From Lysobacteraceae bacterium (lineage in GTDB: Bacteria > Pseudomonadota > Gammaproteobacteria > Nitrococcales > AK92), in assembly GCA_012523465.1 (NCBI GenBank), contig JAAYIK010000028.1:186001-250000 (forward strand): a DNA stretch of 64,000 bases, given 5' to 3'. The notes under the pieces are model-generated. The model made no database searches and was not told the origin of the DNA. It worked only from the letters and a program-made list of their open reading frames with translations. Of the stretch, positions 3,939-55,515 are shown one piece after another. Position numbers and translations under genes: made by a program. Each line of letters opens with the position of its first letter. The stretch's first letter is position 1.

Positions 3939-6401
3939 ATGCTGCCCATCGACGCCGTCCTCCCCGAACTCCTGCAAGCCCTGCGCGATCGCAATGCCGT
4001 CGTGCTGCAGGCCCCGCCAGGGGCCGGCAAAACCACTCGCGTTCCCCTGGCCCTGCTGGAGCAGCCATGGCTGCAGCAGCGGCGCATCGTCATGCTGGAG
4101 CCGCGCCGGCTGGCCGCGCGAGCGGCGGCCGGCTTCATGAGCCGACTGCTCGGCGAGCCGGTCGGGGGCACAGTCGGCTACCGCATGCGCCTGGACAGCA
4201 AGGTCTCGGCCGCCACCCGCATCGAGGTGGTGACCGAGGGTGTACTGACCCGCATGCTGCAGGAAGACCCGGCGCTGGAGCGCTATGGCTGCGTCATCTT
4301 CGATGAGTTTCACGAACGCTCACTGCAGGCCGACCTGGGGCTCGCGCTGTCGCTGGAGGCTCAGCAAGCGCTGCGACCCGACCTGCGCCTACTGGTGATG
4401 TCGGCCACCCTGGACGCCGCGCCGGTGGCCAAGCTGCTGGGTGGCGCGCCGCTCATCAGCAGCCCCGGACGCAGCTTTCCGGTTGCCGTCCGCTATCGCC
4501 CACCGGCCCGTCTGCCGCTCGAGCAGCACCTGGTCGAGACCGTGGTGCAGGCGTTGCGGGAGGAGCCAGGCTCCATGCTGGTGTTTCTCCCCGGCGCCGG
4601 CGAAATCCGCCGGGTCGGACGCATGCTGTCAGGGCGCTTGCCCGCCGACGTCCTGCTCGCGCCTCTCTACGGCGAGCTGCCGCAGGAGGCCCAGGATGCC
4701 GCCATCGCCCCCGCGCCACCGGGCCGGCGCAAGGTTGTGCTCGCCACTTCCATCGCCGAGACCAGCCTCACGATTGAGGGGGTGCGGATCGTGGTTGACA
4801 GCGGGCTGGCGCGCCGACCAGCCTTCGATCCGGCCAGCGGCCTGACCCGTCTGCGCACGGTGCGGGTTTCGCAGGCCGCAGCTGAGCAGCGACGGGGCCG
4901 CGCCGGTCGCCTGGAACCCGGGGTCTGCTACCGCCTCTGGAGCGAGGCCGAGCAGGCTCGTCTGGCTGCCTTCGCCACGCCGGAGATCCTCGAAGCCGAT
5001 CTTAGCGATCTGGTGCTGGAGCTGGCGCAATGGGGCGCGCTGGAGCCAGACGCGCTCAGCTGGCTGGATCCACCGCCGGGGCCGGCCTGGGAGCAGGCCA
5101 AGGCGCTGCTGCGACAACTGCAGGCGCTGACGCCGGACGGCCGCATCACCGACCACGGCCGTGCCATGAAGGCACAACCGCTGCACCCGCGCCTGGCCCA
5201 CATGCTGCTCCGCGGCCGAGAGCTGGGGTGGGGGCGGCTGGCGGCCGACCTGGCAGCCCTGCTATCGGAGCGGGACATCCTGAGCAATTCGCGGGAAACT
5301 AGCATCGAAGTGCGCCTAGCCGCGCTGCGCAGCGGTGCTGGCGCGCACCGGGGTCGGCTGCAGCAGGTCCGGCGCAGCAGCCAGGCGCTGCAGCGGCCCG
5401 ACTCGCCGCAGCGGCCTGAAAGCGCTGATGCGGCCGGCATCCTGCTGGCATACGCCTATCCCGACCGCATCGCCCGCCGCCGTCCCGGCCAGGGCGCGCG
5501 CTATCTGCTGGCCAATGGTCGCGGCGCCTATCTCGCCGCCGACGACCCGCTGCAGGCGCAAGAGTTCCTGGTCGCCGCCGAGCTCGATGGCGATCCGCGC
5601 GATGCGCGCATTTTTCTGGCCGCCGGCCTCGGCCAGGAGGCGCTGGAGGAGCACTTTGCTGCCGCCATCACTGTGCACAAGCACATCGCCTGGGACGACG
5701 CCCAAGGCGCGGTGCTGGCCCGCCAGCAGCGCCGCTACGGCGCCCTGGTCTTGAGCGACACACCGCTCGCCAGCCCCGAGCCGGAGGCCGTGGCCACCGC
5801 GCTGCTGGACGGCATCCGCCGCCGCGGCCTGCATGTCCTGCCCTGGACCGACGCGCTGCGCCAATGGCAAGCCCGGGTCCAGCTGCTGCATCGGCTGGAA
5901 CCGGACGCCTGGCCGGCGGTAAGTGACCAAGACTTGCTGTCGACTCTGGAAACCTGGCTGGCGCCCTTTCTGCAGGGCGTGACCCGCCTGAGCCAGCTGC
6001 GGCAAGTTCCGCTGCAACAGGCGCTGAGTAGCCTGCTGAGTTACCAGCAGCAACGCCAGCTGGAAAAGGAAGCGCCCAGCCACATCACCGTCCCCAGCGG
6101 CTCACGCATCGCGGTGGATTATCTGGCCGGGGAAACACCGGTGTTGGCAGTGAAGCTGCAGGAGCTGTTCGGCTGGCAAGAGACGCCGCGCATCGCCGGC
6201 GGCCGCGTTCCGCTCACCATCCAGCTGCTGTCGCCGGCCGGGCGGCCGGTGCAGGTTACCCAGGATCTGGCCGGCTTTTGGCGCCACGGCTACGCCGAGA
6301 TCCGCAAGGAACTGCGCGGGCGCTATCCCAAGCACCCCTGGCCCGAGGATCCGCTGACGGCAACTCCGACCCGGGGGGTGCAGCCTCGCCGCGCTCGGTA
6401 A
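3939..6401 (+). CDS. hrpB: ATP-dependent RNA helicase HrpB
   Basis: DEAH-family helicase of 820 residues, the normal HrpB size. The start MLPIDAVLPELLQAL aligns with the usual HrpB N-terminus, so the upstream in-frame extension to 3819 is rejected. Visible motifs are Walker A (APPGAGKT, residues 25-32), the DEFH box (122-125), motif III SAT, motif V (ATSIAETSLTI), motif VI (QRRGRAGR) and the HrpB-specific C-terminal region with RPVQVTQDLAGFW and RGRYPKHPWPEDP near the end. HrpB is a proteobacterial RNA helicase of poorly defined role. Transcription is probably monocistronic from the TATAAT immediately upstream. Confidence 0.96.
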   Translation: MLPIDAVLPELLQALRDRNAVVLQAPPGAGKTTRVPLALLEQPWLQQRRIVMLEPRRLAARAAAGFMSRLLGEPVGGTVGYRMRLDSKVSAATRIEVVTEGVLTRMLQEDPALERYGCVIFDEFHERSLQADLGLALSLEAQQALRPDLRLLVMSATLDAAPVAKLLGGAPLISSPGRSFPVAVRYRPPARLPLEQHLVETVVQALREEPGSMLVFLPGAGEIRRVGRMLSGRLPADVLLAPLYGELPQEAQDAAIAPAPPGRRKVVLATSIAETSLTIEGVRIVVDSGLARRPAFDPASGLTRLRTVRVSQAAAEQRRGRAGRLEPGVCYRLWSEAEQARLAAFATPEILEADLSDLVLELAQWGALEPDALSWLDPPPGPAWEQAKALLRQLQALTPDGRITDHGRAMKAQPLHPRLAHMLLRGRELGWGRLAADLAALLSERDILSNSRETSIEVRLAALRSGAGAHRGRLQQVRRSSQALQRPDSPQRPESADAAGILLAYAYPDRIARRRPGQGARYLLANGRGAYLAADDPLQAQEFLVAAELDGDPRDARIFLAAGLGQEALEEHFAAAITVHKHIAWDDAQGAVLARQQRRYGALVLSDTPLASPEPEAVATALLDGIRRRGLHVLPWTDALRQWQARVQLLHRLEPDAWPAVSDQDLLSTLETWLAPFLQGVTRLSQLRQVPLQQALSSLLSYQQQRQLEKEAPSHITVPSGSRIAVDYLAGETPVLAVKLQELFGWQETPRIAGGRVPLTIQLLSPAGRPVQVTQDLAGFWRHGYAEIRKELRGRYPKHPWPEDPLTATPTRGVQPRRAR

Positions 6402-36438: not shown

Positions 36439-36500
36439 CGCTTCAACGTAAGGAAATCTCGAAGCGGCGGCAGCCCGGGGCTGTGCCGCACCATGCCGTC

Positions 36501-37268
36501 ATGAAAATCGCATCCTGGAACGTCAATTCACTCAAAGTCCGCCTGCCACACGTGCTCGACTGGCTCACCACCCGCGAGCCGGCCATCGTCGGCCTGCAGG
36601 AAACCAAGCTCACCGACGACAATTTCCCTGTCGAGCCGCTACGAGCGCTGGGCTATCACTTGGCCTACGCCGGCCAGCCAACCTACAACGGCGTCGCCGT
36701 GCTGAGCAAGCAACCCATCAGCGATGTCGTCACCGACCTGCCCGGGCTCGACGACCCCCAGCGCCGGGTGCTGGCAGTCACCACCGGCGACATCCGCTTC
36801 ATCAATCTCTACGTCCCCAATGGGCAAGCCGTCGGCACCGACAAATACGCCTACAAGCTGGACTGGCTCGAAAAGCTGGAAGCCTTCCTAGCGGACCAGC
36901 TGCGCCAATACCCCCGTCTGGCCGTGGTCGGCGATTTCAACATCGCCCCGGAGCCAGAGGACGTGCACGACCCAGCCGAGTGGGAGGGCAAGGTGCTGTT
37001 CTCCGAACCGGAGCGGGCAGCCCTGCGGCGCCTACTGGCGCTGGGCCTGATCGATACCTACCGCCTCTTCCCGCAAGAGCCGAAGCAGTTCAGCTGGTGG
37101 GACTACCGCATGAACAGCTTCCGCCGCAACCGTGGGCTGCGCATCGACCTGGTGCTGGCCAGCGCGGCCCTGGCCGCCGACTGCACCGCCGCCTATATCG
37201 ACCGCGAGCCGCGCAGCTGGGAACGGCCCTCGGACCATGCCCCCGTGGTGGCGGAATTCAAGCGCTGA
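36501..37268 (+). CDS. xth: exodeoxyribonuclease III
   Basis: A 255-residue AP endonuclease/3'-5' exonuclease of base excision repair. Motifs are SWNVNSLKVRLPH, GLQETKL (catalytic Glu), VGDFNIAPEPEDV (Asp/Asn) and PSDHAPVVAEF (catalytic Asp-His). The start MKIASWN at 36501 is the normal N-terminus; the six-residue longer start lacks support. No ribosome site is evident. A long GC hairpin follows. Confidence 0.96.
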   Translation: MKIASWNVNSLKVRLPHVLDWLTTREPAIVGLQETKLTDDNFPVEPLRALGYHLAYAGQPTYNGVAVLSKQPISDVVTDLPGLDDPQRRVLAVTTGDIRFINLYVPNGQAVGTDKYAYKLDWLEKLEAFLADQLRQYPRLAVVGDFNIAPEPEDVHDPAEWEGKVLFSEPERAALRRLLALGLIDTYRLFPQEPKQFSWWDYRMNSFRRNRGLRIDLVLASAALAADCTAAYIDREPRSWERPSDHAPVVAEFKR

Positions 37269-37287
37269 CGCCTCATCCCCGCTTATC

Positions 37288-37319
37288 CCCCCCGGCCGCA
37301 TGACAAGGCGGCCGGGGGG
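37288..37319. terminator. GC hairpin after exonuclease III gene
   Basis: Perfect 12-bp stem (37288-37299 with 37308-37319) and eight-base loop, 20 bp after the stop. No real T-run follows, so termination strength is uncertain. Confidence 0.55.
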
Positions 37320-37421
37320 CCCTGAATATTAGCGTTTTCAGACTCTTTCCACTCGCCGCGCGTCGACTAAGCCAATGCTGGCGCGCATTCGCTTCGCCTG
37401 ACCGGTCACGGCGCAGGCAGG

Positions 37422-37443
37422 ACTGTATCGCTGCCTTTACAGT
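37422..37443. promoter_or_regulatory. candidate upstream activating dyad
   Basis: Perfect inverted repeat ACTGTA-N10-TACAGT centred about 100 bp upstream of the sigma-54 -24/-12 region. Spacing and position fit the binding site of an enhancer-binding protein such as the one encoded at 40989-42347. Confidence 0.5.
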
Positions 37444-37521
37444 TCCCGCCGCAGCCTGCCGAAAGCCCCACCGGCAAGGTTTTTTCTCAACAAAAACAAA
37501 CATCTGCGAAAACACTCGCAG

Positions 37522-37538
37522 TTGGCATCGTTCCTGCT
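37522..37538 (+). promoter_or_regulatory. sigma-54 (RpoN) promoter
   Basis: TTGGCATCGTTCCTGCT: -24 TTGGCA and -12 CTGCT with the correct 10-bp GG-to-GC spacing. It differs from the TTGGCACG-N4-TTGCT consensus mainly at positions 7-8 and 13. It lies about 90 bp before the repeat-protein ATG and matches the local sigma-54 regulator gene. Confidence 0.75.
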
Positions 37539-37627
37539 TTAACAAACGGGCGACGCAACGGATGAACGTCCGTGGTCGACAGGTGCTTGACGCGTAACAA
37601 ACTAACCAACTTACCAGGAGCAAGGGA

Positions 37628-38212
37628 ATGAAGAAGACCATCGCAACCGCCATCAGCGCGCTCGGCCTCGTCCTGTCCGCCCAGGCCATGGCTGGTGACG
37701 ACGACATCATCTCGGTGCTGCCCATCGCCTCCAACGTGGCTCAGGGCCAGGCCACCGCCCATAGCCTGTCCCACAACGATGTCTTGTCGAACAACGACCT
37801 GCTGTCCCACAACGACATCCTCTCCAACAACGCCCTGTGGTCCAACAACACCGCCAATCTTCGCTCCGAGGCCACGGTGAAGGCCCAGGTTGCAGCCACC
37901 AATCTGGACGGCTCGGTGCGTGGCTCCACCGACGCCGGCAATGGTGGCGACGGCGGCAACGGGGTCGACGATTCGACGCTGGTTGGCGTTGGCGTGGGCC
38001 TGGGGCTGGGCCTGGGGCTGGGTGCCGGCGGGGCCGGCTTTGGCGGTTCCGGCGCGACCGGCGGCTCGGTGGGCACCACCACCACCAACTACATGCAGGA
38101 CCACACGATGACCAACGCCGTCGGCATCTTCCAGGTGGCCCAGAACGGCGGCATGAATGCCATGGCGCAGCAAGGCGTCACCGTCCAGGCCAACTTGAAC
38201 TTCAGCAAGTAA
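37628..38212 (+). CDS. secreted Asn/Gly-rich repeat protein, candidate fibre or amyloid subunit
   Basis: A 194-residue protein not recognised with certainty. It has a Sec signal (MKKTIATAISALGLVLSAQAM, cleavage about residue 22), then five tandem hexapeptides of pattern S[HN]N[DA][VLI][LW] at residues 48-77. A Gly/Val/Leu-rich stretch (about 118-146) follows, and the C-terminus reads GIFQVAQNGGMNAMAQQGVT. The Asn/Gln/Gly-rich, cysteine-free composition and QNxGxN pattern recall Fap and curli-type amyloid subunits (inference). GGAG precedes the ATG. It is first in a four-gene run behind the sigma-54 promoter and is followed by a strong hairpin that may raise its share of the transcript. Role proposed: major extracellular subunit. 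Confidence 0.72.
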   Translation: MKKTIATAISALGLVLSAQAMAGDDDIISVLPIASNVAQGQATAHSLSHNDVLSNNDLLSHNDILSNNALWSNNTANLRSEATVKAQVAATNLDGSVRGSTDAGNGGDGGNGVDDSTLVGVGVGLGLGLGLGAGGAGFGGSGATGGSVGTTTTNYMQDHTMTNAVGIFQVAQNGGMNAMAQQGVTVQANLNFSK

Positions 38213-38222
38213 GCGCAACGCT

Positions 38223-38251
38223 GCAGGTGCCGGCCATCGGCCGGCGCCTGC
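38223..38251 (+). terminator. strong hairpin inside the operon, after the first gene
   Basis: Thirteen-base-pair stem including one G-T pair (38223-38235 with 38239-38251) and ATC loop, 10 bp after the stop. With no T-run it is more likely a message-stabilising or partial attenuating element than a full terminator. Confidence 0.55.
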
Positions 38252-38284
38252 TGCCGACCTCAGCCAGGGAATGGGGATAGCACG

Positions 38285-38653
38285 ATGATGGAAGCACGAA
38301 CCAGGCTCTCGGTTTGCCGCCTCGGCACGGTCGTCGGCTTGCTGCTTGCGACCGCCGTTTACGCCGGCGAGGCGCCCGATGTGCTCGAGCTCGTTGGCCT
38401 GCAGGGTGACGTCAGCGAGCAGGAGCTGGACAGCACGCGCGGACGTCAGGACATCTTCAACGCCCAGATCAGCGAAATCAGCGAAAACGCCTACCTGAGC
38501 CATACCAGCGCCAATGGCGCCAGAACCGGCGACAACCTGATCAGCGGTGACGCGCTGTCCGGCCTTGCCGGCTTCTCCACGGTCATCCAGAACACTGGCA
38601 ACAACGTCATCATTCAGGATTCGCTGATCCTGAATGTCAGCGTACGCCAGTAA
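38285..38653 (+). CDS. small secreted protein with double-glycine-like motif, candidate minor fibre subunit
   Basis: A 122-residue protein with a Sec signal (cleavage after AVYA, residue 27) followed by VSEQELDSTRGR (43-54). That segment resembles the double-glycine leader consensus LSxxELxxIxGG, with Arg as the last residue. The C-terminal half (GFSTVIQNTGNNVIIQDSLI) is Asn/Gln-rich and beta-prone, similar in flavour to the first gene and to Fap minor subunits. No named family is recognised. The next gene encodes a C39-like peptidase, the enzyme class that cuts double-glycine leaders, so processing is plausible but unproven. Confidence 0.68.
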   Translation: MMEARTRLSVCRLGTVVGLLLATAVYAGEAPDVLELVGLQGDVSEQELDSTRGRQDIFNAQISEISENAYLSHTSANGARTGDNLISGDALSGLAGFSTVIQNTGNNVIIQDSLILNVSVRQ

Positions 38654-38672
38654 CCGCGCGGACGCGATCGCA

Positions 38673-39368
38673 ATGCTGCGCTGGCAACGCTGCCGCCTGG
38701 TCGCCGGCCTGCTCTGCTGGCTCACCATCGGCGCCGCGACGGCCAATCCGGCCATCCTGCCCGGCCTCGCCGACCATGTGACCATGCCGGTCACCAGCTT
38801 CGCCGAAGCCCGCTCGCGCGAGCTGATACGCCAGCAGTACGACTTCAGCTGCGGCGCGGCAGCCTTGGCCACGCTGCTGACCCACCATTACGACCATCCG
38901 GTCAGCGAACAGCAGGTGTTCAGCCGCATGTTCGAGCTGGGCGACCAGGAACGCATCCTCCAACAGGGCTTTTCCATGCTCGACATGAAGCTCTACCTGG
39001 AAAGCGCCGGCTTCACCGCCGGCGGCTACCGCATCGACCTGGCCAGGCTGGCGGAAATCGGCGTGCCAGCCATCGCGCTGCTGAACATCAACGGCTATCT
39101 GCACTTCGTCGTGATCAAGGGGGTGCGCGGCGACCGGGTGCTGATCGGCGATCCCGCGCTCGGCCTACGCACCGTCACCCGAGCCAGCTTCGAGGCGGGC
39201 TGGAACGGGATCTTCTTCCTGATCCGCAGCCACGCCAGCGTCGGCCGGCGGCATTTCAACCGGGACGAGGTTTGGGCCATGCTGGCACAGGCGCCGGTCG
39301 CGGACGCACTGGGCCGCGCCGACCTGGCCGGCTTTACCCTGCAGCTCGGTCTTCCGGGCTTGCGTTAG
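38673..39368 (+). CDS. exported C39-like cysteine peptidase (FapD-like)
   Basis: A 231-residue peptidase with a Sec signal (LVAGLLCWLTIGAATA, cleavage about residue 26) and no ABC or membrane domain. Catalytic residues fit the C39 fold: Cys60 in QQYDFSCGAAALATLL (with the oxyanion Gln), His144 in LHFVVIKG and Asp160 in LIGDPALG. C39 enzymes usually form the N-terminal domain of bacteriocin exporters; stand-alone secreted forms occur in the Fap amyloid system (FapD). Its targets may be the two neighbours with double-glycine-like motifs. The ATG at 38673 is preferred because it puts the signal peptide at the N-terminus; an ATG at 38634 overlapping the previous gene is possible. Confidence 0.85.
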   Translation: MLRWQRCRLVAGLLCWLTIGAATANPAILPGLADHVTMPVTSFAEARSRELIRQQYDFSCGAAALATLLTHHYDHPVSEQQVFSRMFELGDQERILQQGFSMLDMKLYLESAGFTAGGYRIDLARLAEIGVPAIALLNINGYLHFVVIKGVRGDRVLIGDPALGLRTVTRASFEAGWNGIFFLIRSHASVGRRHFNRDEVWAMLAQAPVADALGRADLAGFTLQLGLPGLR

Positions 39369-39383
39369 AGGAGAAATGCGAAC

Positions 39384-39848
39384 ATGGACAAGCTCGCTTT
39401 CCGTCTCCGCAGTGTCCTGGTCTGCGCGGCGCTGACGCTGGCAGCGGCTCTGCCGGCGCAGGCGGTGCAGGACTGGGAAAGCGTCGACGATGCCACGCTC
39501 AGTAGCCTGCGCGGTGGCTTCATCGACCGCCATGGGTTCCAGATCCACTTCCGGCTGGAAAACCTGGTCGCCATCGACGGCATGCTCAAGGTCCACAACC
39601 GGCTCGAGATCCCCTGGGGCGATTCGCGCCCGCAGGTCGAGCGCCTGGTCCAGGACACCGCCGACACCGGCGGGGTCAGGCTCACGCTGGCCAACCAGGG
39701 GCTGGCGACGCTGATCCAGAACACGCTCAACGACAAGTTCATCGATCACATGCGCATCATCAACGTGGAGCTGCGCAGCCCCGGCGGCCTGGCCGGCATC
39801 GGCGCGATCAGCCGCATCCAGGCGGGACTGATCTCCGCGCTGCGCTGA
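39384..39848 (+). CDS. secreted protein with double-glycine-like motif
   Basis: A 154-residue exported protein: Sec signal (cleavage after PAQA, residue 27), then VDDATLSSLRGGF with Gly44-Gly45, close to a double-glycine leader. The remaining 109 residues alternate polar and hydrophobic positions (FQIHFRLENLVAIDGMLKV; GLATLIQNTLNDKFIDHMRI), suggesting beta strands. No known family recognised. GAGGAGAAA lies upstream of the ATG. It is last in the sigma-54 operon and probably a chaperone, nucleator or minor subunit (inference). Confidence 0.68.
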   Translation: MDKLAFRLRSVLVCAALTLAAALPAQAVQDWESVDDATLSSLRGGFIDRHGFQIHFRLENLVAIDGMLKVHNRLEIPWGDSRPQVERLVQDTADTGGVRLTLANQGLATLIQNTLNDKFIDHMRIINVELRSPGGLAGIGAISRIQAGLISALR

Positions 39849-39899: not shown

Positions 39900-40931
39900 T
39901 CATTGGCGCCCCCACAGCACGAACGGCGAACGTAGTACCAACTGGATATCGGGCGCGTACTCGGTGACGCCCACCGCCAGCGCCAGGCTGACATTGTTGC
40001 CCGTCCCTACCCGGTGCGACAGGCCGAACAGCAGGGAACCGACCTGGAAGCGGCTGAACTGCGCATCCAGGCCAGGGTCGTGCTGATACTTGGTCTTGAA
40101 GACCACGCTGTGGTCGTAGCCCAGGCTGAAGGACATCCGCTCGTTGACGGCGAAGCCCATCCCGAAGCCGAAGCTCACCGCATCCCCCGGATCGACCCGG
40201 CCGTACTCGGCATTGACGCGACGGGACACGTTCCACAGGTAGGAGACATTGCCGAACAGCGCCACCGGGTCGGTCGGATAGATGAAGCTCAGCCCGGCCT
40301 GCACACCCCAGAACCCGGAGCCGGTGGGCTGCTCGCGAAAGATCTCGCCGATCGGGATCGGCGCGCCGGTGTCCTCGTCTTCGACGGTCAGCTCTTCTCG
40401 CGCCACCTCGAAGGGCCCCTCGCCGGTGCGGCTCTTGACCCGCAGGTTGACCACCGTGTACGGCCAGCCATTGCCGCCGTAGCTCAGCTGATAGCGCAAC
40501 GCAAGCTCGACGTCCCCCAGGCCATCACCGGATGAGTCGCGCACCAGATCGGTGGGCGAGCCCTTGAACAGCTCCCGCTCGCGAACGCTTTCCTCCTTGT
40601 AGACGAACGGCACCCGCAGCTCGGCTTCCAGTCGGCGCGTCAGGCCATAGCGCAGCGCAAAAGCGGCGGTCAGGGTATCCCGCTGCACCTCGCTGATGTT
40701 AATCAGCCCCACCAGCACCGCCGGCACCACCGTATAGCCCTCGACCGCCACCTGCATGTTGGACGAGTGGGTGTATTGCAGCGACGGCTCCAACACCAGC
40801 TGGCCGGCGGGTGTCAACACGCTGGGCTGATCGAAGATTTGGGCCGGCTCGGCCGGCGGCTGCTGCGCCAACGCGCTGCCGGCGACGGCGAGCAAACAAG
40901 AGGCGGTACGTCCCCAGGCGGAGTACTTCAT
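39900..40931 (-). CDS. outer-membrane beta-barrel protein, transporter-like
   Basis: A 343-residue protein with a signal peptide (cleavage after SALA, about residue 22) and a mature chain of alternating amphipathic strands typical of a barrel (LVLEPSLQYTHSSNMQVAVE, TLTAAFALRYGLTRRLEAEL, GFWGVQAGLSFIYP). It resembles the phenol-meta-pathway-type transporter family. FapF of the Fap system is also an export barrel, so this may be the export pore for the convergent operon. It lacks an obvious N-terminal coiled coil. AAGGAAG precedes the ATG; the gene is 57 bp after the sigma-54 regulator on the same strand. Confidence 0.8.
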   Translation of the reverse strand: MKYSAWGRTASCLLAVAGSALAQQPPAEPAQIFDQPSVLTPAGQLVLEPSLQYTHSSNMQVAVEGYTVVPAVLVGLINISEVQRDTLTAAFALRYGLTRRLEAELRVPFVYKEESVRERELFKGSPTDLVRDSSGDGLGDVELALRYQLSYGGNGWPYTVVNLRVKSRTGEGPFEVAREELTVEDEDTGAPIPIGEIFREQPTGSGFWGVQAGLSFIYPTDPVALFGNVSYLWNVSRRVNAEYGRVDPGDAVSFGFGMGFAVNERMSFSLGYDHSVVFKTKYQHDPGLDAQFSRFQVGSLLFGLSHRVGTGNNVSLALAVGVTEYAPDIQLVLRSPFVLWGRQ

Positions 40932-40988: not shown

Positions 40989-42347
40989 CTAGCGGGTCAA
41001 AGTGCTGCTGCCGGTCCGCACGATCACCGAGCCGGCGGGCGGGGCGTCCAGCGCGTACTTGCGCATTAGCCGGTACAGGGTGACGCGCGAGGTGCCGAGC
41101 TGGCTCGCTGCCTTGGAAACGTTGTAGCGGCAGGCCTGCAGTGCCGCCTCGACGGCCATCCGCTCGGCGTTTTCCCGCACCTCCACGAGGCTCAGCGGCG
41201 CGTCCTGGCTGTCACGCAGCCCCAGGTCGGCGGGCCGGATCAAGCGCCCCTCGCACATCACCATGGCGCGCCGGACCCGATTGATCAGCTCGCGCACGTT
41301 GCCGGGCCAGGTGTGCGCCTCCATCGCCGCGTAGGCCTCGCGGCTGAAGCCGCGCACCCCTGGCGCCTTGTCCTTGGCGTAGCGCTCGAAGAAATAATCG
41401 GCCAGCACCGCCACGTCGCCGGCGCGCGCGCGCAGCGGCGGCATGTCGAGGCGCAGCACGTTGAGGCGATAATACAAATCGGCACGGAAGCGACCTTCCG
41501 CCACCGCCAGCTCCAGATTGACGTGGGTGGCGGCAATCACGCGCACGTCCACCGGCACCGAGCCACTGCCGCCAAGCCGCTCGATGACACCTTCCTGCAG
41601 GAAACGCAGCAGGTTGGCCTGCAGCTCCAGATCCAGATCACCGATCTCATCAAGGAAGATGGTGCCGCCGTTGGCGGCCTCGATGCGGCCGATCTTGCGT
41701 CGTTGTGCGCCGGTGAAGGCGCCGCGCTCATAGCCGAACAGCTCCGACTGGATCAGGCTGGCCGGCAGGGCACCGCAGTTGACCGCCACAAACGGCCCGC
41801 CGCTGCGGCGGGAATTGTCGTGAATGGCCTGCGCGGCCAGTTCTTTGCCAGTGCCGCTCTCGCCTTGGATCAGCACCGGCGCCTCGACGTTGGCGATCTT
41901 GCCGATGGCGGCCATCAAGGCGTGCATAGCCCGGCTTCTGCCCACCATGCGGTGCTGCACCGGTGGACCGTGATCGCCGAAGGCTTCCCGCAGCGCGCTC
42001 ATGCCGAAGGCGTGGCCGATGACGGCATTGAGCCGCTCCCAATGGACGGGCAGGGTGTGGAAATCGACGCAGTAGCGCAGCACCAGCTGCGCCAGCTCAG
42101 GCTTGCCGAGATCCTCGGCGGGCATCAACGCAATCCACTCGATGGCGCCGCGGGAAAGGATCTGTTCCAGCTCCGACAGATGCCAGCGCCCGTCGGCCAG
42201 TTCCACCAGGCCGACCTGATACTCTTCGAGGCAAGGGAGGGAATCAGGTGTCGCCGTCCGGACGTTCCAGGCAGAAGCCAGTACCGCAAGCTGATCCCAG
42301 GCGCTACCCTGTGGAGACAGATAGAGGATTTTCCTTTTTTGCATCAT
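40989..42347 (-). CDS. sigma-54-dependent enhancer-binding transcriptional regulator
   Basis: A 452-residue bacterial enhancer-binding protein. The AAA+ domain has Walker A GESGTGKE (162-169), the sigma-54-contacting GAFTGA loop (209-214) and Walker B GTIFLDEIGDL. The C-terminus has a Fis-type HTH (NVSKAASQLGTSRVTLYRLM). The N-terminal domain (1-125) looks receiver-like but lacks a recognisable phospho-acceptor aspartate: the segment reads YQVGLVELADGRW. It may thus respond to a ligand, as VpsR and FleQ do with cyclic-di-GMP (inference). The start at 42347 is chosen by GGGAAG upstream. It probably activates the promoter at 37522-37538. Confidence 0.9.
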   Translation of the reverse strand: MMQKRKILYLSPQGSAWDQLAVLASAWNVRTATPDSLPCLEEYQVGLVELADGRWHLSELEQILSRGAIEWIALMPAEDLGKPELAQLVLRYCVDFHTLPVHWERLNAVIGHAFGMSALREAFGDHGPPVQHRMVGRSRAMHALMAAIGKIANVEAPVLIQGESGTGKELAAQAIHDNSRRSGGPFVAVNCGALPASLIQSELFGYERGAFTGAQRRKIGRIEAANGGTIFLDEIGDLDLELQANLLRFLQEGVIERLGGSGSVPVDVRVIAATHVNLELAVAEGRFRADLYYRLNVLRLDMPPLRARAGDVAVLADYFFERYAKDKAPGVRGFSREAYAAMEAHTWPGNVRELINRVRRAMVMCEGRLIRPADLGLRDSQDAPLSLVEVRENAERMAVEAALQACRYNVSKAASQLGTSRVTLYRLMRKYALDAPPAGSVIVRTGSSTLTR

Positions 42348-42520: not shown

Positions 42521-42540
42521 GGCGATGCCGCGGCATCGCC
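42521..42540. promoter_or_regulatory. 20-bp perfect palindrome upstream of ubiD
   Basis: GGCGATGCCG followed by its exact reverse complement, ending 30 bp before the ubiD ATG in the region shared with the sigma-54 regulator gene. It could be an operator or a cruciform/hairpin; no regulator is identified. Confidence 0.45.
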
Positions 42541-51812: not shown

Positions 51813-52031
51813 CCGCAGCCGTGGTCGGCTCGAGCCGGCGCTGAAAAGGGGGCTGCCCGCCGCCTTCTGTCCTGGGCGCAGTGGCTGCCGCCTGCACCGC
51901 TGTCACTGCCTCGTCCCCCGCTGCCTCCGACGGCAAGCTCCGCCACCGTTATAAGCGATTGCTGTTGTACGCGCGGCAATCGCCCCAATTTCGGCCACTT
52001 CAAGCACCATGGACGAAGGAGGATGCACTCG

Positions 52032-53221
52032 ATGGCTCTTCATCTCATGGAAGAGAAAGGCGTGCCGTTGGAGCGACAGAAATTCACCTGGCGTGAGCTC
52101 GCGCCCGAGCCGATCAGCAAGCTCGACGACGATGCCATGACGCGGGTCAGGATCATCCTGATGAACGGCATCGAGCACCAGGCCAACCGCTTCTCTCACC
52201 ACTGTGCGCTGTTCAACGAGCATCTGCGGCTGCCGCTGGCGCGGATACGTCGCGTCGAGCACCACCAGGAAACATTGATCAACTGGCTGCTGCCGCCGGA
52301 CCAGTCGGGGCTGGAGACCACCATCGCCTACGAGCAGGTGGCGATCGAGATCACCGCCAGCGTCGCCCAGAACGAGCCCGACCCCTATCTCGCCCAGGTC
52401 TATCGCTTCGGCATGCTGGAGGACTTCGATCACCTCTACCGCTATTCGGCGCTGCTGGACCGGCTGGAAGGCAAGGACGCCAACAACATCACTCAGTGCT
52501 ACACTGACATCGCCATGGGGCGGCCGACCATCGACCAGCACCGACACCCCGAAGACGACCTTCGCAAGCATTACGACCGCAACACGGCTGCGCCCATCAG
52601 CCGTCTCAACGCACTCACCATCTTCTCCGCCGAGTACCAAACCCACGACTTCTACATGAATCTCGGGCCGACCTACGCCGACCCGGTGGCGCGGGCGCTG
52701 TACGCCGAGATCCTGTCCATCGAGGAGCAGCACGTCACCCAGTACGGCTCCATCATCGACCCCAACGAGACCTGGCTGGAGAAGTGGCTGCTGCACGAGG
52801 CCAACGAGGTCTACAACTACTACTCTTGCCTGCAGGGCGAGCCCAATCCGCGAATCAAGAAGATCTGGGAGCGCTTTCTCGACTATGAGCTCGGCCACCT
52901 GCACGTGGTCATGGAGCTCTTCAAGCAGCACGAGCGGCGCGACCCGGCCGAGATCCTGCCGGCCGAGCTGCCGGAGCCGATCCGCTACGAGAGCCACCGC
53001 GAGTTCGTGCGCCAGGTCCTGAACCAGGAGGTCGAGCTCACCGTCAACGGCACCGACTTCGTCCCGGGCGGCCTGGGCAGCAAGGAGTCGCCCGCCACTA
53101 GGGAATATCGGCATCACATCAACAGGGACGGCTCCCCCAGCGACACCGTCGCCGCCGAATACATCTGGCGCCCCGGCACCGAACTCAGCGACCGACACGC
53201 AGCCCCCGGCAGCTCATGTAA
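52032..53221 (+). CDS. large ferritin-like di-iron protein, 3' end uncertain
   Basis: A ferritin-superfamily protein of about 395 residues, family not recognised by name. Several helices carry Glu-x-x-His type iron ligands: GIEHQANRFSHH, AYEQVAIEITA, FSAEYQTHDFY, IEEQHVTQYG and DYELGHLHVVMEL, suggesting two four-helix bundles. The start at 52032 has AGGAGG nine bases upstream. The frame has no stop at the expected place and runs on through the next gene to 54083 with a low-complexity Arg/His/Ala tail. The natural stop may be TAA (53219-53221) or TGA (53227-53229) in other frames, both abutting the next ribosome site, so a 1-base indel near the end is suspected. Confidence 0.7.
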
Positions 53222-53232
53222 GGAGGTGAATC

Positions 53233-53985
53233 ATGGCAACCCGCACATCCACCGGAACCAACCGCACGGGCATGGACATGTCGCCCGCTCTCGCCAAGGA
53301 GCTGCTGCAAATCACCAGGGAGCACACGCCCCCAGCGGGGGACGAGAGCAAGCTTGCGCGCATGCGGCAGGACTTCTTCGCCTCCACGCAGCCGATCGGC
53401 ACCGTGCCGCCGCCGGGCACGATGAAAGGGATGGCGAAGTCGGCGCTGGAAGCCATCAAGGGCCACAAGCCGACGGTCTTGATCGACAAGCTCGGCGAGC
53501 AGCTGGCCTTCGAGCGCACCGGCGTCCGCCTGTACGACGCCGTACTTGCCAAGTTCGACGCCCTGGGCAGCTGGGACGGCGGTCCTACCCGGGCCCAGCT
53601 GGAGCAAAACCGAGACGAAGAGCTCGCCCATTTCGAGATGGTCCGCCAGCACATGCTGCGTTTGGGCGCCGACCCCACCGCTATGACGCCCTCGGCCGAC
53701 GTCGCCGCGGTGATCGCCTCCGGTGTGCTCAAGACCATCACCGATGCCCGCACCACGCTCTCTCAGGCGCTGCAGGCCCTGCTGGTCGCGGAACGGGCCG
53801 ACCTCGAAGGCTGGCAGGCGCTGATCCAGCTGGCCGAGGAACTTGGCCACGACGAGATGGCGGACGATTTCCGCGCCGCCGAGGAGGCCGAGGAACGACA
53901 CGGTGCCTGGGTGCGGCAGTGGCTAGGGGCCGGCATGCTGAAGGACGCCAAGCGCGAACTGCGCAAGTCGCCCGGCAAATCTTGA
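53233..53985 (+). CDS. ferritin-like protein
   Basis: A 250-residue four-helix ferritin-like protein. Candidate di-iron ligands are in AFERTGVRLYDAV, DEELAHFEMVRQH, LVAERADLEGW and EEAEERHGAWV (ExxH in the second and fourth). An N-terminal extension of about 60 residues (Thr/Pro-rich) precedes the bundle. AGGAGG lies six bases before the ATG. It immediately follows the larger ferritin-like gene and is probably co-expressed with it. Role unknown; possible oxidase, iron-handling or stress protein. Confidence 0.82.
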   Translation: MATRTSTGTNRTGMDMSPALAKELLQITREHTPPAGDESKLARMRQDFFASTQPIGTVPPPGTMKGMAKSALEAIKGHKPTVLIDKLGEQLAFERTGVRLYDAVLAKFDALGSWDGGPTRAQLEQNRDEELAHFEMVRQHMLRLGADPTAMTPSADVAAVIASGVLKTITDARTTLSQALQALLVAERADLEGWQALIQLAEELGHDEMADDFRAAEEAEERHGAWVRQWLGAGMLKDAKRELRKSPGKS

Positions 53986-54010
53986 GTCATCCTCCCACGC
54001 GATTTGTGCA

Positions 54011-54050
54011 CAGGCAGCAAACGGGAGCCCCGTTTGCTGCCTGCCCTTTC
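54011..54050 (+). terminator. rho-independent terminator after the ferritin-like genes
   Basis: Perfect 15-bp stem (54011-54025 with 54029-54043), three-base loop, then CCCTTTCTCC. Confidence 0.8.
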
Positions 54051-54172
54051 TCCAGGCTTCGGCGACAAAACGCAACCAATTGATTGAAAAGAAAATTACC
54101 GCCCTGATCAAATTGTCGCCAAAGCGTCGCACGGCTTGTGGCGATGCGGTCTAGAGGACCGTTTCCACGCGC

Positions 54173-54792: not shown

Positions 54793-55515
54793 ATGCGGCC
54801 CAGCAGCGGCTACAAGGAATTCAAGCGGCAAATCGACGCGCTCAAGGCCGACATCTGCCGCGAGATCTATCTGCAGAACAAAGAGCGCATTCGGGTCAAG
54901 AACGAAGACGTTGCCGTCGCCCGCCTGTCCGCGATATTCGACCACACGCTCGAGATCAGCAACCGGCTGGGCTTCCAGGCCATGAGTGTGCGCGACCTGA
55001 GCGAGCACAGCGGCATCAGCATGGGCGCGCTCTACAGCTACATCGAAAGCAAGGACAAGCTGCTAGAGATGATCCTGTGCATGGGCCGGATGGCGGTGAC
55101 GCGGGTGATGACGCAGGCTGCCGCCGAGCCGCTGGACGCCCGCAACCAGCTGCGGCAGCTGCTGCGGGCCCATCTTTACCTCACCGAAGCCATGCAGCCT
55201 TGGTTTTACTTCTCCTACATGGAAACCAAGCACTTCGATCGCGAGGCCCGCGAGCGGGCGCTGGAAGGCGAGCTGGCTTCCGAGCGCTATTTCTCCGACT
55301 GCCTGCTCCGCGGCAGCGCCGAGGGGGTGTTCGAGGTTCGCGATCCGGAACTGACCGCGGCCATGATCAAGCCGCTGCTGCAGGACTGGTACCTGAAGCG
55401 CTGGAAGTACCGCCGCCGCAACATCGGCGTGGAGGCTTACGCCGACGCATTGATTGAATTCCTCGAAGCCGCCCTGCTGAAGCGTCCAGCACCGACCGTG
55501 CCAGCGCCGCCTTGA
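54793..55515 (+). CDS. TetR/AcrR-family transcriptional regulator
   Basis: A 240-residue regulator with an extended N-terminus (about 45 residues) before the TetR HTH, RLGFQAMSVRDLSEHSGISM and GALYSYIESKDKLLEMIL. The C-terminal ligand domain is not characteristic. The gene heads a run of three redox-enzyme genes in the same direction, so it probably controls them; palindromes upstream may be its operators. Inducer unknown, though the acyl-CoA or lipid-type enzymes of such clusters are common companions (inference). Confidence 0.88.
   Translation: MRPSSGYKEFKRQIDALKADICREIYLQNKERIRVKNEDVAVARLSAIFDHTLEISNRLGFQAMSVRDLSEHSGISMGALYSYIESKDKLLEMILCMGRMAVTRVMTQAAAEPLDARNQLRQLLRAHLYLTEAMQPWFYFSYMETKHFDREARERALEGELASERYFSDCLLRGSAEGVFEVRDPELTAAMIKPLLQDWYLKRWKYRRRNIGVEAYADALIEFLEAALLKRPAPTVPAPP

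Follow-up and report, generated by a model that had tools for sequence, protein, structure and literature searches.

Passages in two articles on Pseudomonas fluorescens PF07 describe the closest known system, the control of fapA–E by BrfA, RpoN and c-di-GMP. There, fapA has a -24/-12 promoter, identified by 5'-RACE, that needs RpoN and BrfA, and brfA lies in reverse orientation beside the fap genes (PMC9207406); BrfA is presented as a c-di-GMP-sensing enhancer-binding protein (PMC13101488). The Fap system, FapA to FapF, is outlined in excerpts of PMC5557850 and PMC3792158, the latter of which counts fapF separation and fapA loss among its known deviations. In the parts of PMC5552954 that deal with Burkholderia cenocepacia, BerB binds c-di-GMP and, together with RpoN, activates a gene that regulates the biofilm matrix, and VpsR of Vibrio cholerae is said there to act independently of RpoN.

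The locus studied here lies in a 64-kb stretch of DNA, called the window throughout. With the BrfA/RpoN system, as the passages on PF07 present it (PMC9207406, PMC13101488), it shares a -24/-12 promoter before the first gene, a reversed activator gene adjoining the fap-type cluster and a GAFTGA activator of about 440–450 aa. The same 20-bp palindrome is also found upstream of fapA in related Pseudomonas (locus L212 and others). As in the Fap system of the excerpts cited (PMC5557850, PMC3792158), there are a FapD-like C39 protease, a FapF-like barrel and secreted N/G-rich proteins; the locus differs from that system in a FapF-like protein without the N-terminal coiled coil, in scores that all fall below the NCBIfam equivalog cut-offs and in divergent subunits. 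BerB differs in controlling berA, and thereby exopolysaccharide, according to the same parts of PMC5552954. VpsR has an N-terminal VpsR domain homologous to that of the activator here; the GAFTGA motif and the -24/-12 promoter of our locus indicate RpoN, unlike for VpsR.

We conclude that positions 37422–37538 are very probably the control region of a Fap-like operon, at which the neighbouring activator, acting on a dyad, would open the RpoN polymerase, probably in response to c-di-GMP. Since RpoN–BrfA control of fap is already published for P. fluorescens, what is new is the variant locus and an operator that crosses genera. The features are, with their basis in brackets:

37288–37319, no strand: strong GC hairpin in the gap between xth and the promoter (sequence)
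37399–37408, no strand: TGACCGGTCA palindrome (present, not conserved)
37422–37443, no strand: ACTGTA-N10-TACAGT dyad, the enhancer-type operator predicted for the adjacent VpsR/BrfA-type activator (sequence and conservation)
37482–37501, no strand: A/T-rich stretch, 20–40 bp upstream of the -24 (recurs on average in homologous promoters)
37504–37521, no strand: CTGCGA-N6-TCGCAG palindrome, directly abutting the -24 (present, not conserved)
37522–37538, plus strand: -24/-12 (RpoN, sigma-54) promoter TTGGCATCGTTCCTGCT (predicted, sequence)
37628–38212, plus strand: first gene, secreted N/G/S-rich repeat protein of 194 aa with ..LSHNDVLSNNDLLSHND.. (sequence)
38285–38653, plus strand: secreted protein of 122 aa with a short FapE-like N-terminal motif, ending VIQNTGNNVIIQ.. 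(sequence)
38634–39368, plus strand: C39 peptidase, FapD-like (profile match)
39384–39848, plus strand: secreted protein of 154 aa with a distant FapE-like N-terminus (sequence)
39900–40931, minus strand: FapF-like outer-membrane protein (matches the barrel of solved FapF)
40989–42347, minus strand: sigma-54 activator of BrfA type with VpsR domain, GAFTGA and Fis-type helix-turn-helix (sequence)

The Fap-like operon and the neighbouring activator

The C39 peptidase scores 163 bits against NCBIfam FapD, below the equivalog cut-off of 330, and its catalytic cysteine is present (DFSCGAAALAT). The outer-membrane protein reaches 149.5 bits against NCBIfam FapF, below the cut-off of 700, and matches the solved FapF barrel (5o67) with an E of 9.5e-35. 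As the FapF match begins at residue 24 of the protein and position 102 of the profile, the N-terminal coiled-coil region is missing. An AlphaFold model built from 4 sequences had a mean pLDDT of 50, so FapF was assigned by sequence similarity and not by fold search; a search with a profile containing Pseudomonas FapF was circular and is not counted. NCBIfam FapB and FapC matched no operon protein, and the C-terminal part of the first-gene subunit aligned to FapB with an hhalign probability of 39%, so that it is not recognisable as either. The FapE-like N-terminal motif gave 92% in the 154-aa and 86% in the 122-aa protein. The 194-aa repeat protein is probably the fibre subunit, the fibres would be amyloid in nature, and we call the operon Fap-like, not a confirmed Fap system. 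Farther along the window, at 52023–54083, a 686-aa ORF overruns a 250-aa ORF (53233–53985) on the same strand in another frame, possibly through a frameshift or a long chance extension.

The activator gene probably starts at 42347, within a longest ORF that begins at 42536, and its stop at 40989 lies 3.45 kb from the promoter region, in agreement with an earlier sequence-only reading that had placed an enhancer-binding protein gene 3.5 kb away in the same locus. In the AAA+ protein, the GAFTGA motif and a Fis-type helix-turn-helix are present and Walker A is intact; its N-terminal VpsR domain matches solved VpsR (7v2b) with a phmmer E of 1.6e-8. It has the recognition helix SRVTLYRL in common with most fap-adjacent activators. 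In a tree of 46 activators, that of the window joins L141 (support 94), with L145 next (92); the fap-adjacent activators do not form one supported clade, and the deep branches are weakly resolved. The c-di-GMP arginine of FleQ-type activators has no counterpart at the same position in this activator. Judging from BrfA, BerB and VpsR, high c-di-GMP is the likeliest on-signal; the genome has 22 GGDEF-domain matches.

Many loci combine an activator, an outer-membrane protein and a C39 peptidase with small secreted proteins, from the family, order and class of the window to Variovorax (L006) and a proteobacterial metagenome bin (L005). The FapF family was found in 35 of 369 sampled genomes of the class, none above the equivalog cut-off. 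This recurrence bears on the idea that another sigma-54 activator of the genome, and not the local gene, drives the promoter. At least four sigma-54 activator matches at E<=1e-60 (scoring covered 4 of 22 candidates) would offer such a protein, but the neighbourhood of this activator subtype and amyloid genes is conserved in many genomes and the activator co-occurs with the dyad; we regard a distant activator as very improbable.

By their C-terminal motifs, the subunits seem to fall into three or more classes: canonical FapB/C, that of the window and one ending SSGLYN..VGGVSVAAHS. Large secreted subunits of the last class lie upstream of C39 in L145, L147, L148, L149, L167 and L173; L145 and L167 have them in tandem, and the promoter setting is of the same kind. 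Second, diverged loci with C39 and an outer-membrane protein occur in L156 and L157 (genomes G032 and G033), with no adjacent match to a VpsR-type activator.

The promoter and its upstream elements

The promoter is intergenic, between the end of xth at 37268 and the first operon gene, 106 bp before the operon. The gap from GG to GC in TTGGCATCGTTCCTGCT is 10 nt, in the context TGGCA..TGC, which bears out the spacing and position claimed for it in the sequence-only reading; from this spacing, transcription would be expected to start at about 37549, some 12 nt downstream. Among 89 matches above 7 bits in the window, scored with a matrix derived from the sigma-54 consensus, the site ranks second. 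The top match, on the minus strand at 55488, lies over coding ORFs, and for this reason the score alone is not proof. The genome has a single rpoN (TIGR02395, 501 bits, cut-off 277). The hairpin after xth may be an end point of upstream transcription. A riboswitch or structured leader was considered and dropped, as a permissive search of 37270–37720 gave nothing credible; an Rfam search at gathering thresholds over six homologous loci found tRNA alone.

The conserved core of the dyad, CTGTATC-N6-TTTACAG, occupies 37423–37442, with the midpoint of the dyad some 89 bp before the -24. Its arms of 6 bp are not rare by chance; it stands above chance by virtue of its conservation in homologous upstream regions. 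No further copy of ACTGTA-N10-TACAGT was found elsewhere in the genome at up to one mismatch, and the switch therefore looks dedicated to this locus. Such copies near sigma-54 promoters had been proposed as a check in the sequence-only reading; their absence fits a dedicated switch and is no refutation, and a genome-wide regulon for the dyad was rejected. The relaxed motif CTGTW-N10-WACAG has five perfect places in the genome, and within 3 kb around each, only the Fap-like locus pairs it with a correctly placed -24/-12-like site; at the L239 place, the -24/-12 match is on the minus strand and more than 700 bp off. Allowing one mismatch raises the number to 162, compared with 141 for the backward control, a small excess that we did not count. 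The NifA upstream activator site is TGT-N10-ACA and the LexA box CTGT-N8-ACAG; neither assignment was kept for the dyad, in which the spacing is 12 from TGT to ACA, not 10, and 12 from CTGT to ACAG, not 8.

The remaining elements of that reading are all present in the DNA, but the regulatory roles given to them found no support. Of the 29 homologous upstream regions, 2 contain TGACC-N0 (for TGACCGGTCA), none TGCGA-N6 and 4 CTGCG-N8, where the background mean is 3.0; the TGACCGGTCA and CTGCGA-N6-TCGCAG palindromes are both probably due to chance. An A/T-rich patch had been suggested as one that IHF could bend. The A/T fraction 20–40 bp upstream of the -24 does average 0.59 in homologous promoters, against 0.39–0.52 in other bins; the best IHF match in this region, 11 of 13, was equalled or exceeded by 347 of 1000 shuffles. 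The core of the reading, a sigma-54 promoter with a dyad and a matching local activator, was upheld by their co-occurrence across genomes; the operon content had gone unnamed in it.

Conservation across homologous loci

For each locus, we chose the top-scoring -24/-12 site that lay on the same strand as the operon, at most 6.5 kb and more than 600 bp away from the C39 gene. The set of 29 comprises activator-adjacent loci with a promoter score of at least 11.5 bits, the window excluded. Also omitted from the counts were L236 (the same locus as L005), L144, L147 and L155, in which the activator side is outside the available stretch, and the diverged loci L156 and L157. Ten activator-adjacent loci below 11.5 bits fall outside the 29 (L005, L143, L150, L151, L164, L170, L212, L213, L216, L219), several of which end at contig ends; under the site rule, no promoter qualified in L234 or in L217, whose activator is truncated by the end of its contig.

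The best -24/-12 site lies 46–164 bp before the first predicted secreted-protein ORF in 26/29 loci, the exceptions being L162, L172 and L218; the same placement was seen in one (L226) of five loci examined that have no adjacent activator. These figures bear on whether the -24/-12 and the dyad are chance matches and the operon is transcribed from a sigma-70-type promoter. Chance -24/-12 matches do occur, as the best one in the window shows by overlapping coding ORFs. Yet position and sequence of the element are conserved in those 26 loci, and a scan of 36500–38500 for a sigma-70-like site found 0 against 0.2 expected; of all the alternatives we weighed, a sigma-70-type promoter has the least to recommend it and is barely credible. 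The five amyloid-type loci without an adjacent activator (L220, L224, L226, L227, L229) include four without a -24/-12 at the operon start, as if such loci had switched to another control.

To find palindromes without bias, 1024 half-sites at 21 spacings were scanned over the 29 upstream regions, the window excluded. CTGTA-N10-TACAG came first of the 21,504 designs, in 19 of 29 regions (mean 3.0, sd 2.3), and the designs ranked below it were mostly registers of the same palindrome. This conservation agrees with the claim of a perfect dyad at enhancer distance. At 8 or more of 10 positions, the dyad is found in 19/29 loci and in 6% of random 260-bp segments from the same loci; 500 Markov resamples gave a mean of 1.6 loci with the dyad and a maximum of 6 in 29. 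In the first 25 non-window regions, at the same threshold, spacing N10 gave 20 sites in 17/25 regions against 1–9 for other spacings, N16 forming a second, smaller peak of 9 sites. As these 25 regions were inspected before the motif was fixed, the independent tests are 13 later-fetched loci and the Pseudomonas fapA set. In the later loci, N10 gave 7 sites in 5/13, against 0–4 for other spacings. All five dyad-bearing loci are activator-adjacent, L222 is activator-adjacent without a dyad, and seven others have neither, among them L233, which has no upstream sequence because its site is at a contig end. Kinship among loci was controlled only in part, with 15 ten-mers common to L152 and L153 and 4–6 in the other flagged pairs.

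We then weighed the possibility that the sigma-54 promoter is real and the dyad is bound by some other regulator, a repressor or a global factor, the local activator using another site. In keeping with it, 10/29 activator-bearing loci have no good dyad at 8 of 10 (L006, L140, L142, L145, L146, L154, L160, L162, L173, L222; in L162, a lower-scoring promoter closer to the gene does have one), the distance from dyad to -24 ranges from 44 to 229 bp across loci (89 in the window), and binding by the local activator is a prediction. Against this, the dyad accompanies the activator in the 19 loci and is present in 0/5 testable loci without one (L233 left out; Fisher p 0.005 with L233, about 0.011 by hand without it), although these five are a weak control because four of them have their selected -24/-12 somewhere other than at the start of the operon. 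Its single copy in the genome also speaks against a global regulator. The Pseudomonas fapA promoters tell against this reading too: they carry the same palindrome, and BrfA controls fapA in P. fluorescens PF07. We consider another dyad-binding regulator unlikely, if the most serious of the alternatives, and retain the local activator as the protein that would bind the dyad. In L140 (G001:C11), the activator gene at 4162–5375 is in two frames through a frameshift, either broken or misassembled; its promoter region has a strong -24/-12 and no good dyad.

The palindrome in Pseudomonas and its meaning

L212 is P. fluorescens EK007-RG4, not PF07, the source of BrfA, so that likeness to PF07 BrfA is by description. 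It encodes a 440-aa GAFTGA activator, reversed and adjoining fapF, and upstream of its fapA lies GCGGCACGCCTTCTGCT, with CTGTTTCAAACCTGAAACAG 81 bp further up. Its fapF runs in the direction of the fap operon, with fapA–C present, and is convergent with the activator gene; in the window, the FapF-like gene is on the opposite strand with the activator, the two in tandem and both convergent to the operon. The subunits here, unlike those of L212, are not recognisable FapB or FapC. L022 and L050, taken up as BrfA candidates, proved to be another activator type; the fap-adjacent activator was located via FapF.

FapA was found in 71 of 99 sampled Pseudomonas genomes. Of these 71 matches, 30 made up the promoter set, and sites above 7 bits were present in 25; activator presence was established for L212 and L213. 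At 9 or more of 10 positions, counting either A or T as a match at the inner one, the palindrome occurs in 12 of the 25 fapA promoters, at -80/-81 in 10 of the 12; leaving out L212, it is in 11/24, mostly at -80/-81. In L259, L260, L261, L263 and L272, the chosen site is 340–375 bp off and probably the wrong one. An unbiased scan of 23 non-redundant Pseudomonas regions, without L212, placed registers of the palindrome among the top designs, together with unrelated ones such as CCCTG-N3. The motif was therefore predicted outside Pseudomonas and found within it. Upstream of fapA in L213 (P. brassicacearum), 5480–5710 holds several imperfect copies, suggesting multiple activator sites. Among the titles, abstract openings and passages covered, we found no description of the palindrome (Guo 2024, a possible source for the mapped BrfA site, lies outside this coverage), and the main text of PMC5552954 on BerB contains neither "palindrom" nor "inverted repeat".

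In the mechanism that we propose, the VpsR/BrfA-type activator from the opposite end of the locus would bind the palindrome at 37423–37442, about 90 bp upstream, the DNA would loop across the A/T-rich stretch, and the GAFTGA loop and AAA+ ATPase would open RpoN–RNA polymerase at 37522–37538. With the activator on, fibre subunits and the FapD-like protease would be made, and high c-di-GMP as the trigger would tie amyloid production to the sessile state. More broadly, we see an even chance that CTGTAWC-N6-GWTACAG is the common operator of a VpsR/BrfA family that links c-di-GMP to amyloid secretion well beyond Pseudomonas, and that this locus and its relatives build amyloid fibres from subunits of a class other than FapB/FapC, which a coil-less FapF exports. 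Such an operator would provide a testable DNA code for the timing of amyloid-type matrix production in bacteria and would make target prediction possible for an activator family that is probably linked to c-di-GMP. The locus also draws attention to loci of the Fap-like kind whose subunits are unusual and whose exporter is simplified.
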